From contig CAIUPE010000050.1 of NCBI GenBank assembly GCA_903900975.1, positions 1 through 62,913 on the forward strand: a stretch of 62,913 nucleotides of DNA, read 5' to 3'. The stretch comes from an uncultured Hyphomicrobiales bacterium (lineage in GTDB: Bacteria > Pseudomonadota > Alphaproteobacteria > Rhizobiales > Beijerinckiaceae). Positions 1 through 3,371 of the stretch are shown here, piece after piece. Position numbers and translations under genes: made by a program. Below the pieces are notes generated by a model. The model had not been told where the DNA came from. It ran no database searches and was given only the letters and a program-made list of their open reading frames with translations. Every line of letters starts with the position of its first letter. Position 1 is the stretch's first letter.

Positions 1-16
1 CGCTCGCAATTGTGTG

Positions 17-160
17 TTTGAAGTGTGTTAATTTGGAGGTGGGTGGGGACCGTTCGCAATGAGGTCTCGTACGACCGTCGTCATCTCGGTTCCCCACCCG
101 GCTTCCCGACCGCTTGAATGGTAGGAAGGGTCTGACGCCCGCACACAATCGAAAGCAAGA
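17..160 (+). ncRNA. Predicted IS110 bridge RNA (limits approximate)
   Basis: A target-binding loop is closed by an 11-bp stem, 41-51 with 88-99 (one bulge), and capped by hairpin GGTC-TCGTAC-GACC (63-76). Its left guide CGTTCGCAATGA (51-62) matches the rejoined target in the same sense at 11 of 12 bases. Its right guide CGTCAT (79-84) is the complement of ATGACG at the right junction (1130-1135). The donor-binding loop has left guide ATGGTAG (118-124), identical to the right end 1123-1129, and right guide CACACAAT (142-149), complement of the left end 9-16. A small hairpin GGGT-CTGAC-GCCC (128-140) lies between the donor guides. Bridge RNA in the left noncoding end is the known arrangement for the IS110 group. 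Transcript ends are not visible. Confidence 0.7.
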
Positions 161-169
161 GGCCATCCC

Positions 170-1129
170 ATGCAGATGATACATTTTTTAGGCGTTGATG
201 TCAGCCAGGATTGGTTTGATGTCGCTATTTTTGGCTCGGCAAAGCCTGCGCAGTTCCAAAATAGCGAAGCAGGCTTTGACGCTTTCGCACAGCACTGCGT
301 TGACCTTGATTGGTCCAAATGCTTTGTCGTTGTGGAGGCAACGGGCGGATATGAGACCCGTTTGTTGCGGTATCTGATCGCTCAAGGGGCACACGTGCAT
401 CGCGCAACGCCCTTGCATGCCAAGCATTTTATCAGGTCACTCGGCCTCAAAGCAAAGACCGATAAGATCGATGCTTTGGCTCTTGCCCGCTATGCCGTTG
501 AGCGCCATGCTGAGCTGCCTGTTTTTGTTTTTCCAGATGAAGAGCAAAGCGCTTTCAATGACTTAATGATGCGGAGGGGCGATTTAGTAGCCTTTGCCGC
601 TGCCGAGAAGGCGCGCGCTTCACAACCGCGTTACAAAGATGCGGCCTCCTCCGTTATGCAATCCATTGAGGCGATGCTCGGCTTTATTGAGGCCCAAATC
701 GCCGCCATTGAGGCCGAACTTGATGCCCTTGTGGAAGCCTCTCCAACCTTAAGCCGCCGCATCGAGACCCTACGCACAGTCAAAGGCGTCGGACGGCTCA
801 GCGCCTATGCTTTGCAAGCCTTCATGCCAGAACTTGGAACCTTGACACGCCGAACCGCGGCAAGTTTGGCAGGATGTGCACCTCACCCCCGCGATAGCGG
901 TATCAAAAACCGAAAGCGAAGCGTCTTCGGTGGAAGAGGTACCGTTAAACGAATGCTCTTCCTCGCCGCCATGACCGCGCGGCGATACGAGCCAGCCCTC
1001 AAAGCCTTCTTCGAAAAACTCGTCGCAACCGGAAAGCCAAAAATGGTCGCACTAACCGCTCTCATGCGAAAAATTATCGTCATCGCAAATGCACGATTGA
1101 AAGAATTGAATCTTCAATCATCATGGTAG
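170..1129 (+). CDS. IS110-family transposase (bridge-RNA-guided recombinase)
   Basis: This 319-residue protein has the two-domain IS110 architecture. The N-terminal RuvC-like DEDD domain shows D10 in GVDVSQDWFDVA, E56 in VVVEATGG, and D98/D101 in KTDKIDALALARYA. The C-terminal Transposase_20 domain (about 195-290) contains LRTVKGVGRLSAYAL and the SG motif at S243, the likely catalytic serine. Length is normal and no frame is broken, so the enzyme is probably active. An AGAGG ribosome site (158-162) precedes the ATG at 170; the ATG at 176 is an alternative. Known function in the family is excision as a circle and RNA-guided insertion without target duplication. Confidence 0.95.
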   Translation: MQMIHFLGVDVSQDWFDVAIFGSAKPAQFQNSEAGFDAFAQHCVDLDWSKCFVVVEATGGYETRLLRYLIAQGAHVHRATPLHAKHFIRSLGLKAKTDKIDALALARYAVERHAELPVFVFPDEEQSAFNDLMMRRGDLVAFAAAEKARASQPRYKDAASSVMQSIEAMLGFIEAQIAAIEAELDALVEASPTLSRRIETLRTVKGVGRLSAYALQAFMPELGTLTRRTAASLAGCAPHPRDSGIKNRKRSVFGGRGTVKRMLFLAAMTARRYEPALKAFFEKLVATGKPKMVALTALMRKIIVIANARLKELNLQSSW

Positions 1130-1141
1130 ATGACGCAATAG

Positions 1142-1198: not shown

Positions 1199-1459
1199 TT
1201 AATAATGATACCGGCACGCGGTTATAACAACGGTGCTTGCCTCAACCGCATAAACAAGTCGATGTGTATCATCGATGCGGCGTGACCAATATCCCGAAAG
1301 GTTTTCCCGTAATGGCTCAGGCTTGCCGATGCCCGTAAACGGCTCGCGCAAGATATCCCGCACCAATTGATTGATCCGCTTCAGCGTCTTTTTATCTTGG
1401 ACCTGCCAGTAGAGATAATCTTCCCAGCCGTCTGGCGTAAAAGTGAGCCGTCTAGTCAT
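1199..1459 (-). CDS. yoeB: YoeB-family mRNA interferase toxin
   Basis: This 86-residue protein matches YoeB along its whole length, including DGWEDYLYWQ, IGKPEPLRENLSGYWSRRID, and the terminal CRYHY. The residues matching the catalytic E46, R65 and H83 of E. coli YoeB are all present. YoeB cleaves mRNA at the ribosomal A site when released from YefM. The ATG at 1459 overlaps the end of the antitoxin gene by 8 bases, so the two are translationally coupled with the antitoxin first. Nothing suggests inactivation. Confidence 0.95.
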   Translation of the reverse strand: MTRRLTFTPDGWEDYLYWQVQDKKTLKRINQLVRDILREPFTGIGKPEPLRENLSGYWSRRIDDTHRLVYAVEASTVVITACRYHY

Positions 1460-1709
1460 CAATCAACGACTGCTCAACGGCTTCGCCTGCGCGATGTTGC
1501 TTAATCGAACGCGCCAGACGTTGCGCATTGGCGGGAGACTTCAAGAGATAGGCCGTCTCCATGATGCTATTATAGGTGTCCAGCGACATCACAACGGCAT
1601 TCGGCGCATCGCGCCGCGCGATGATGGTCACATTCGCATCGTCTACGACCTTGTCGAGAACACTTTTGAGATTGTTCCGCGCTTCCGTGAAATTAACAAC
1701 ATCAAGCAT
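1452..1709 (-). CDS. yefM: YefM-family antitoxin
   Basis: This 85-residue Phd/YefM protein begins MLDVVNFTEARNNLKSVLDKV and carries the VMSLDTYNSIMETAYLL core of YefM. The N-terminal half dimerises and binds DNA; the C-terminal part (about 60-85) wraps the toxin. In-frame TTG and GTG codons lie just upstream (1715, 1712), but the ATG at 1709 fits family length and has an AAGG site at suitable distance. It is the first gene of the pair and, as in the family, should repress its own promoter through the palindrome at 1742-1767. Confidence 0.93.
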   Translation of the reverse strand: MLDVVNFTEARNNLKSVLDKVVDDANVTIIARRDAPNAVVMSLDTYNSIMETAYLLKSPANAQRLARSIKQHRAGEAVEQSLIDD

Positions 1710-1741
1710 CACCAACGAACCTTGTTACATGATCAGTATAT

Positions 1742-1792: not shown

Positions 1793-1849
1793 GGACCGCG
1801 CGCCTCCTGGCTCGCATTCTTAAGAAGCGCGCCGGGAGGCGCGCGGTCC
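1793..1849. repeat. REP-like palindromic element, copy 1
   Basis: The 57-base unit starts GGACCGCGCGCCTCC and ends GGGAGGCGCGCGGTCC, so the arms fold into a strong GC-rich hairpin around an AT-richer centre containing GCATTCTTAAG. A second copy with the same end sequences and a shared CGCATT centre lies at 44671-44723. Two unlinked intergenic copies in one window indicate a dispersed repeat family. No RayT-like transposase is present in the window. Confidence 0.7.
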
Positions 1850-1937
1850 AACTACTCCAGCAATCCATAAAAATTGCTGCGCAGCAATTGTGCAGCATAA
1901 ATTTATCAACCCCTTGAAATAAAAGCCATTTCACAAA

Positions 1938-1964
1938 AATGCTGCTCAACAAAAAAGCCCGCTT
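1938..1964. repeat. Right copy of the 27-base direct repeat
   Basis: This copy overlaps the purC terminator and is the likely parent of the copy at 1142-1168. A related perfect palindrome, ATTGCTGC-GCAGCAAT, lies nearby at 1873-1888 and shares the GCTGCGCAGC core of the left copy (1146-1155). Confidence 0.6.
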
Positions 1965-1977
1965 TGTAGCGGGCTTT
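1954..1977 (-). terminator. Rho-independent terminator of purC
   Basis: AAAGCCCGCT (1954-1963) and AGCGGGCTTT (1968-1977) form a perfect 10-bp stem with a four-base loop. Read on the minus strand the stem runs into a T tract (complement of 1951-1956). It lies 37 bases beyond the purC stop. Confidence 0.85.
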
Positions 1978-2013
1978 CCTGAATTATTGTGCGGTGCAAT
2001 ATAATTGCCTAAT

Positions 2014-2778
2014 TTACTGGACTAGCTTCGGTCCACCGCCGGCAACCGGCTCGTTCTCGGCCAGAATGCCGAGGCGGCGAGCAACTTCGGTATAGGCTTC
2101 GACCAGATTGCCGAGATCGCGGCGGAAGAGGTCTTTATCGAGCTTGTCGTTCGATTTTACGTCCCACAACCTGGCGGAATCGGGCGAGATCTCGTCGGCA
2201 AGGACGATGCGCATCATTTCGCCCTCCCAGAGCCTGCCACATTCGATCTTGAAATCGACGAGCTTGATACCAGCACCCAGAAAGAGGCCCGTCAGGAAAT
2301 CATTGACGCGAAGCGCTAAGGCCATGATGTCGTCGAGTTCCTGCGGCGTGGCCCATCCGAACGCCGTAATGTGCTCTTCTGAAACCATTGGATCGTTTAG
2401 CGCATCGTTCTTGTAATAGAACTCGATGATTGAGCGCGGCAGCGGTGTGCCCTCTTCCAACCCGAGACGGGTGGCGAGCGAACCCGCGGCAATGTTGCGA
2501 ACAACCACTTCAAGCGGAATAATTTCCACTTCGCGGATCAGCTGTTCGCGCATATTGAGCCGCCGGATGAAATGCGTTGGCACTCCAATGGCGTTCAAAT
2601 GGTTGAAGATAAATTCGGAGATGCGATTGTTCAACACGCCCTTGCCTTCCAAGACAGCGTGCTTCTTGGCGTTAAAGGCGGTGGCATCATCCTTGAAGTG
2701 CTGGACGAGGGTGCCAGGCTCAGGACCCTCATAGAGGATCTTCGCCTTGCCCTCGTAAATGCGACGGCGGCGGTTCAT
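2014..2778 (-). CDS. purC: Phosphoribosylaminoimidazole-succinocarboxamide synthase
   Basis: PurC joins CAIR and aspartate to give SAICAR in purine synthesis. The 254-residue protein starts [18 protein letters not shown], the standard alphaproteobacterial start, and contains [40 protein letters not shown] and VDFKIECGR, which form the ATP and CAIR sites. In-frame ATGs at 2784 and 2808 exist; the one at 2778 was chosen on family length, although its ribosome site is weak. The gene appears to be transcribed alone and ends in a strong terminator. Confidence 0.96.
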
Positions 2779-3047
2779 CGACATATACCGTTGTTTGAGG
2801 AAATCCATAACCGGAAATCTATCCTTACAGGAAAACCCATCTGATTTGCAACGCAACATATCGATTTTTGCGGGGCATTACAAAAGTGTTCCCTCCCTTT
2901 TTCCAACGAGGGACCCCAACGCGGGTCTCCCTAGGTTGAAGGCAAGACTTTTTAATCTTATCTCTATCGAACGGATAGGCGATTCAAGCTGCAGCCTTGA
3001 TCTGGATGTTGCCTTAGATCAGAGTTGGTAAAATGGGGAGTAAAGTA

Positions 3048-3371
3048 ATGAGTTCATTTGATGATCGGGAACGTGGCTATGAGGCGAAATTTGCGCATGA
3101 TCAGGAGCTTAACTTCCGAATTCTCGCGAGGCGGAACCATTTGCTCGGTGTCTGGGCAGGCGAATTGCTCGGCTATCACGGCGGCGAATTAGCCCATTAT
3201 GCGGACACTGTCATTTCGGCTGATCTGACGGAACCAGGCGATGACGACGTCTTACAAAAAATTGCAAAGGACTTTTCCGAGCGGCATATTGCCAAATCTA
3301 CGATAGAAATCCGCGCTGAAATGGAACAACTTTACAGCGTCGCTAAACGAGAAGTTTTAACAGGCGAATAA
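3048..3371 (+). CDS. DUF1476 protein, F1-ATPase inhibitor zeta subunit
   Basis: This 107-residue protein is a canonical DUF1476 member, beginning MSSFDDRERGYEAKFAHDQE. In Paracoccus and relatives this family is the zeta subunit, whose N-terminal inhibitory region blocks the F1-ATPase in the hydrolytic direction. A GGGGAG site at 3035-3040 decides for the ATG at 3048 over the one at 3033. A paralogue follows 147 bases downstream. No ATP synthase gene lies in the window. Confidence 0.9.
   Translation: MSSFDDRERGYEAKFAHDQELNFRILARRNHLLGVWAGELLGYHGGELAHYADTVISADLTEPGDDDVLQKIAKDFSERHIAKSTIEIRAEMEQLYSVAKREVLTGE

Follow-up and report, generated by a model that had tools for sequence, protein, structure and literature searches.

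A probable bridge RNA-guided IS110-group element of a Hyphomicrobiales bacterium targets the terminus of a palindromic repeat and appears to have a compact guide RNA

The Element and Its Proposed Mechanism

The left end of the analyzed window, a 62.9-kb contig (C50) from a 2.9-Mb genome in 153 contigs, almost certainly carries an intact insertion sequence of the IS110 group that moves by bridge RNA-guided recombination. The element occupies positions 11–1129 (+), which gives 1119 bp between a left AT core at 9–10 and a right AT core at 1130–1131, both on the plus strand. In the mechanism that we propose, a circular form would join the right and left ends and thereby create a promoter across the AT core. 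A transcript of about 41–160 would fold into two loops, one binding the target and the other the donor. The left target guide (LTG, 53–60) would pair with CTCGCA-AT and the right target guide (RTG, 79–84) with AT-GACG, whereas the left donor guide (LDG, 118–124) would recognize the right end of the element itself and the right donor guide (RDG, 142–149) its left end. The recombinase would join the two DNAs at AT. In this scheme, transcription, formation of the circle, catalysis, and the order of steps are modeled on IS621. What the sequences show directly are the ends and the core, the empty sites, the matches of the guides together with their covariation, the homology of the RNA, and the presence of multiple copies.

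The recombinase is encoded by an intact open reading frame of 319 amino acids at 170–1129 (+), in keeping with the initial annotation, which had described an intact-looking element and whose letters and coordinates all proved correct. The protein matches Pfam families PF01548 (DEDD_Tnp_IS110; 67.8 bits, cut-off 29) and PF02371 (Transposase_20; 43.5 bits, cut-off 21.3). It was aligned to IS621 (8wt6) and ISCro4 (9t56), the sole relatives with solved structures at E ≤ 0.001. The DEDD residues D10, E56, D98, and D101 and the catalytic serine S243, counted by hand on the translation, line up with those of IS621. In alignment A1, D98 and D101 are invariant and S243 is nearly so. A RuvC-like DEDD recombinase with a C-terminal serine domain is the arrangement of the IS110 family.

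The stop codon TAG forms the final three bases of the element, so the right non-coding end has zero length, and the left non-coding end measures 159 nt. An RNA region upstream of the gene and a longer left end are the layout of the IS110 group. The IS1111 group, which is characterized by a guide RNA downstream of the gene and by subterminal inverted repeats of 7–17 bp, differs in layout; in the window element the stop codon adjoins the core, which leaves no non-coding region downstream of the gene.

Bridge RNA

The left non-coding end contains a predicted bridge RNA at 36–156 (+), with a predicted 5' end at about 41. To represent its relatives we used a covariance model, R1, that was built from nine elements with the window excluded; their transposases are 35–45% identical to that of the window. 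In the 62.9-kb window, R1 has a sole match up to E = 1, at 36–156 on the plus strand, which is full length and scores 64 bits (E = 1e-14). This outcome favors the two-loop RNA of the initial annotation, which had suggested a check with a model of related copies. Matches at E ≤ 1e-4 occur in 10 of 385 genomes of the class, the own genome included. A search of the window with Rfam at gathering thresholds returned only a tRNA and no bridge RNA family.

The target-binding loop (40–100, +) is predicted to consist of a stem at 40–52/87–100 and an apical stem at 63–66/73–76. The donor-binding loop (112–156, +), placed by the R1 alignment, has a closing stem at 112–115/153–156 and an apical stem at 128–131/137–140. 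The target loop region 34–104 folds with a z-score of -3.6, and none of 200 shuffles was as good. The donor loop alone (96–160) has a z-score of +1.5, no improvement on shuffles, and in the lowest-energy structure of 11–169 a portion of the RDG is instead paired with the left end. Over both loops, the alignment of the nine relatives contains 22 consensus pairs, 13 of them with compensatory changes. Three of these pairs connect LDG and RDG and are due to the guide sequences, not to a stem.

All four guides can be read on the plus strand in the order LTG, RTG, LDG, RDG within the two internal loops. The LTG, TTCGCAAT at 53–60, has the same sense as CTCGCA-AT and matches it at 7 of 8 positions; the mismatch, T53 against C, may be a U-G wobble. 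The RTG, CGTCAT at 79–84, is the complement of AT-GACG (6/6). The LDG, ATGGTAG at 118–124, equals the right end at 1123–1129 (7/7), and the RDG, CACACAAT at 142–149, is the complement of 9–16 (8/8). These last three assignments stand exactly as first annotated. The LTG had been placed at 51–62 with 11 of 12 matches; its location holds, but that span includes two bases beyond the core, and by homology the guide runs from about 53 to 60.

For scoring, eight bases of left flank plus the core were compared with the LTG, the core plus four bases with the RTG, seven bases of right end with the LDG, and the core plus six bases with the RDG. The ordered matches are 9/10, 6/6, 7/7, and 8/8, a total of 30 of 31. 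Among 3,000 dinucleotide shuffles of 17–165 the mean score was 19.6 and the maximum 25, which bears out the IS621-type guide order and polarity claimed from the raw sequence. Other pairs of ends with equal dinucleotides (7,999 sampled of 10,568) gave a mean of 20.0 and a maximum of 27, and each of the five top-scoring pairs includes the true left end. The AT core lies within the LTG, RTG, and RDG pairings. The LDG excludes it, since ATGGTAG is followed by GA instead of AT; the IS621-type feature of a core in all four guide pairings is thus incomplete here, and the core match of the LDG is absent in several relatives as well.

Covariation of Guides with Flanks and Ends

No variation of the guides was seen among the copies within the genome, so the evidence for covariation rests on relatives. 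A fixed four-guide scan was applied to 72 relative loci; 71 gave output, and 70 of these consisted of real letters (the best result for L154 was an N run). The scan scored higher than its reversed-region control at 49 of the 70 loci, equal at 14, and lower at seven. Of the 70, 56 score 27 or less, the controls ranging from 21 to 28, and six reach 29 or 30, two of which represent the same element. The scan thus reads some elements, mainly those of a clade with AT cores, and not most others.

The AT-core clade includes elements from a metagenome-assembled genome (MAG) designated CTSoil_106 (L086), Pannonibacter (L087 and L088), Pleomorphomonas (L089), and a Rhodospirillales MAG (L093), as well as L098, L032, L035, and others. 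The window element and nine relatives picked from the scanned loci were compared with guides cut by alignment column. Each element's own flanks and ends were the best in total for all ten, and the sum of 266 compares with a best of 255 in 100,000 permutations, although guide matches had helped to select the relatives and, in part, their ends (some ends were re-registered by homology), a selection that favors this result. The own sum for the LTG is 75/80 and for the RTG 58/60, reached by 0 and 263 of the 100,000 permutations, respectively. For the LDG it is 59/60 (25 permutations as good) and for the RDG 74/80 (none). Taken singly and with ties included, the own partner is best in 10 elements for the LTG, 8 for the RTG, 10 for the LDG, and 9 for the RDG.

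The donor guide sums bear on an alternative modeled on seekRNAs, in which the RNA would be processed to a short form that carries target matches only and the donor ends would be recognized otherwise. There is a precedent within the family, as ISEc21 is described as having a 74-nt RNA with target matches of which a 58-nt form is sufficient (PMC11187229). In the present elements, however, conservation extends to the donor-binding loop, and from one relative to the next the donor guides change with the ends, even allowing for ends that were partly guide-chosen. We consider this alternative unlikely.

Since the relatives and ends of the first test had been picked with the help of guide matches, a second test was run in which the left end was placed by the RDG alone and the LTG was scored afterward. 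A single left end emerged for 15 of 21 elements, and all of these but L204 (5/8), 14 in number, match the LTG at 7 or 8 of 8 positions. Two candidate left ends each were found for L086 and L098, one of which matches 8/8 in either case, and three for L092, the best at 6/8. Three elements could not be placed: L200 has six candidates, L031 is cut by the contig, and the donor guide of L099 is unreadable in its row. By eye, the flank of L099 matches fully and that of L200 fits its guide poorly; the transposase gene of L200 contains a stop codon. Eleven of the 21 elements had been chosen by the covariance model and not by guides, and among their eight unique left ends seven match.

Over 236 aligned bases counted from the left end, the sister elements L087 and L088 of Pannonibacter show six differences. 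Three of these fall within the target guide, and the flanks match at two of the three, among them the first base of the core. Element L087 has a left core GT and a right core AT, as if target and donor cores had differed at insertion. The sequence CCGGGATGAC is the end of the L087, L088, and L106 targets or close to it. It occurs at 144 and 134 places in two Pannonibacter genomes (reversed control 2 and 6) and at 17 and 20 in the genomes of L106 and L089 (reversed control 4 and 2).

Homologues at other targets therefore do change their guides with their flanks, subject to the misses and the selection caveat given above; a lack of such covariation was among the outcomes that the initial annotation had named as grounds for abandoning the bridge RNA. 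The covariation also weighs against the view that the recombinase protein chooses the target, with the RNA-like left end serving as a regulatory leader and the guide matches being coincidental or relics of ends. The failure of the isolated donor loop to fold better than shuffles would be in line with such a view, but the guide matches far exceed those of shuffles and the structure model, with its compensatory changes, is common to the relatives, and we regard a protein-chosen target as very improbable.

Copies, Target, and Empty Sites

In the genome, eight distinct left junctions (nine rows including the window, the left side of which is C41) and nine right junctions share the ends given above. 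The junctions mostly sit at contig ends. The genome accordingly holds at least nine copies, most of them broken by the assembly. Their visible coding parts are 94–100% identical to the window protein. Only eight bases of the window precede its left core (1–8, +; left target half CGCTCGCA), and the rest of its left flank, as synteny with relatives suggests, lies on C41, another contig of this genome.

The left flanks read CTCGCAAT in all nine rows. The two bases before it are CG in seven rows and AC in two, and two of the eight left flanks have ACCTCGCA in place of CGCTCGCA. On the right side, the genome was searched with a right-end pattern that itself contained ATGACG and tolerated two mismatches, which found 15 places, all ending in ATGACG; in the window, the right target half GACG lies at 1132–1135 (+). 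The 15 places comprise the nine junctions, two truncated remnants, and both arms of two palindromic remnants.

Of the query region, the truncated remnants L018 (C133) and L019 (C102) retain only the last 53–58 bases. These abut target-like sequence, and a short microhomology seems to have mediated the joining. The palindromic remnants L082 (C30:9766–9822) and L083 (C128:1230–1286) are identical, near-perfect palindromes without a transposase, built of two opposed right ends of the window element (CGTCAT-...-ATGACG). They would fit a deletion between two insertions that faced each other from either end of a single repeat unit, which may have proceeded via a 7-base GATTGAA repeat inside the right-end hairpin.

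Joining the left CTCGCAAT with the right ATGACG gives the target 12-mer CTCGCAATGACG, which is the end of a palindromic repeat of about 120 bp. Its uninterrupted occurrences in the genome number 41, against none for the reversed pattern. All 12 genus genomes contain it, at 4 to 57 sites, and the reversed control gave 0 in 11 of them and 1 in the other. The contexts of 30 of the 41 sites were examined; by a simple motif test, an adjoining repeat arm (TTGCTTCG-like) is present in 25 of these 30 and both arms in 19. Where both ends are exact, the repeat unit CGTCATTGCGAGCG...CGCTCGCAATGACG measures about 120 bp, and the 41 sites include six outward-facing pairs of 12-mers with starts 76–107 bp apart. 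The target is the end of a palindromic repeat that is frequent in the genus, and insertions consequently land in repeat DNA, mostly beside genes. The preferred target ending in AT-GACG that had been predicted from the window alone is the one found at junctions, empty sites, and uninterrupted genomic copies. At loci L052–L081 and in the genus genomes, the repeat has constant ends and a variable middle. A search for the Y1 (REP-associated) transposase PF01797 found none in the own genome, and the control search was positive in 5 of 14 genomes.

Eleven genus relatives, which are 78–100% complete, gave no match to the transposase at E ≤ 0.001. The flank genes were located in four of the genus relatives, and synteny pairs four insertions: C41|C50 (the window), C132|C119, C72|C47, and C68|C14. 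For C72|C47, the left flank aligns to L180 of genome G005 at 330–1832 and the right flank at 1831–3181, so that the overlap is exactly the two-base core AT. The window site in genome G007 reads TTCGCTCGCAATGACGAG without the element. This site is also without roughly 730 bp holding toxin-antitoxin genes that follow the element here. Of 22 orthologous stretches in the four genus relatives, seven contain exact CTCGCAATGACG and four TTCGCAATGACG; five hold variants with one or two changes, and six nothing closer than three mismatches. Relatives without the element thus hold its target, and the ends with an AT core proposed at the outset are borne out by junctions and empty sites alike. The AT-only overlap of flanks, the constant 12-bp target, and the lack of a long target duplication are as expected for insertions of the IS110 family.

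The toxin-antitoxin genes of the window (1199–1715, -), a YoeB toxin (PF06769) and a YefM-type antitoxin (PF02604), lie between the element and a SAICAR synthetase gene. The pair is absent from the site in G007 and G004, and similar sequence is present in G005 and partly in G010.

Spread of the copies by homologous recombination between palindromic repeats, which would also give constant borders, is very unlikely: many copies do lie in or adjoin the repeat and the remnants on C133, C102, C30, and C128 resemble products of recombination or slippage, but the flanks outside the 12-mer vary among copies, including the two ACCTCGCA flanks, relatives hold element-free target sites at the same places, and the C72|C47 insertion is exact to the core.

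A Possible Junction Promoter and a Seemingly Compact 5' End

In the bridge RNA-guided element, a promoter may form only in the circular form. A possible -10 box, TAATTT, lies at 29–34 (+), and a possible -35 box, TAGATT, spans 1127–1129, the core, and base 11. The boxes of the window are weak (6 of 12 consensus bases), and their layout is like that of ten relatives. In all 11 joined right-left ends, the -35 box falls across the core with a spacing of 17 bp (18 in two), which puts the start near base 31 of the left end. A transcript from such a junction promoter would start near position 41 of the window, and the RNA span of 17–160 suggested earlier is probably too long at its 5' end.

The left end could be located in 17 elements, and in 15 of these 58–131 nt precede the RNA match. 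These stretches fold at -20.6 to -94.1 kcal/mol, usually into a long hairpin, although the energies carry no shuffle control and grow with length. In the window element and in L203, only 26 nt precede the match, and they fold at -1.9 and -3.5 kcal/mol with no clear hairpin. The 5' stem-loop that precedes the target-binding loop in IS621-type RNAs is accordingly not apparent in the window element. Where shuffle controls were run, the hairpin stretches of L086, L092, L093, and L098 gave z-scores of -2.2 to -3.6 and that of L088 gave +0.6, so the hairpin of the Pannonibacter pair is less sure. Upstream of 2209 in L106, the hairpin stretch before the bridge RNA is duplicated in tandem.

The sister L203, from another genome of the class, is a mini-element with 267 bp between its cores (G241:C280, about 1380–1649, -), and it is the sole R1 match in that genome at E ≤ 1e-4. 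It contains the bridge RNA and the first codons of a transposase, with a stop after 31 amino acids. The left end is TGTGTG and the right end ACATGGTAG, and the donor guides are those of the window except for one base. The target, CTCAGA-AT-GACAAC, is matched by the guides TCAGAAT (full match) and GTTGTCAC (7/8). Presumably L203 needs a transposase in trans, and it is possibly a non-autonomous, RNA-carrying derivative.

IS110 orthologues are reported to conserve the structure of the 5' stem-loop, which is nonetheless not essential for IS621, where its deletion lowered RNA binding and slightly lowered recombination (PMC11208158). Set against this conservation, the short unfolded 26-nt stretches of the window element and L203 make their lineage look like a natural case without the stem-loop. 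We think it rather probable that this lineage lost the hairpin, which is often a long palindrome in relatives, and retained a working bridge RNA of about 116–120 nt that the recombinase binds without the helper hairpin. The transcript would then begin at the base of the target-binding stem. The window element, though apparently lacking the hairpin, has spread to no fewer than nine sites in one genome.

Comparison with Known Systems

In this study, the ends, core, target, and four guides of an IS110 element could be read from one raw sequence and were then borne out by empty sites and relatives. The work adds a clade of AT-core bridge RNA elements whose members appear to have been naturally re-aimed at repeat ends of their own hosts. 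This re-aiming appears to include two sister elements that differ at few guide bases, most of which match their flanks. Specialists may find the compact RNA the most unexpected feature; if it works as proposed, it would offer a natural test of the role of the 5' stem-loop and a shorter scaffold to study.

The IS110 elements in REP sequences had been described by 2006 (PMC1525189), and the bridge RNA mechanism was described in 2024 (PMC11208160). As reported for the genomes studied there, all copies of ISPpu9 (7/7), ISPpu10 (7/7), ISPa11 (6/6), and ISRm19 (4/4) lie in REP sequences (PMC1525189). These elements, compared here by their descriptions only, have other hosts and REPs and are different elements from that of the window. 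A text search of the literature for CGTCATTGCGAG gave one match, which is unrelated, and the element may still be described somewhere. Since IS110 elements with RNA guides and REP palindromes as targets have been described before, no novelty of kind is claimed; the window element is a well-supported further example.

The AT-core relatives share with the window the bridge RNA model, a left end starting with TGT, and the AT core. They differ in the longer stretch with a predicted hairpin before the RNA match and in their donor ends, which are mostly GAGTTG as opposed to ATGGTAG in the window.

Of the known systems, IS621 of E. coli is similar in the respects for which it has been described (PMC11208160, PMC11208158). 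The recombinase is of like size with DEDD and serine residues, and the RNA lies upstream of the gene. The guide order LTG, RTG, LDG, RDG, the strand polarity, and the 2-bp core are shared, as is insertion into repetitive palindromes, and a junction promoter like that of IS621 is possible. The core itself is AT in the window element and CT in IS621. IS621 has a 5' stem-loop at nt 1–33 (PMC11208158), whereas none is clear in the window element, and the donor loop is about 45 nt in the latter compared with 68 in the former. The two elements differ further in the right non-coding end, which has zero length in the window, and in their guide and target sequences.
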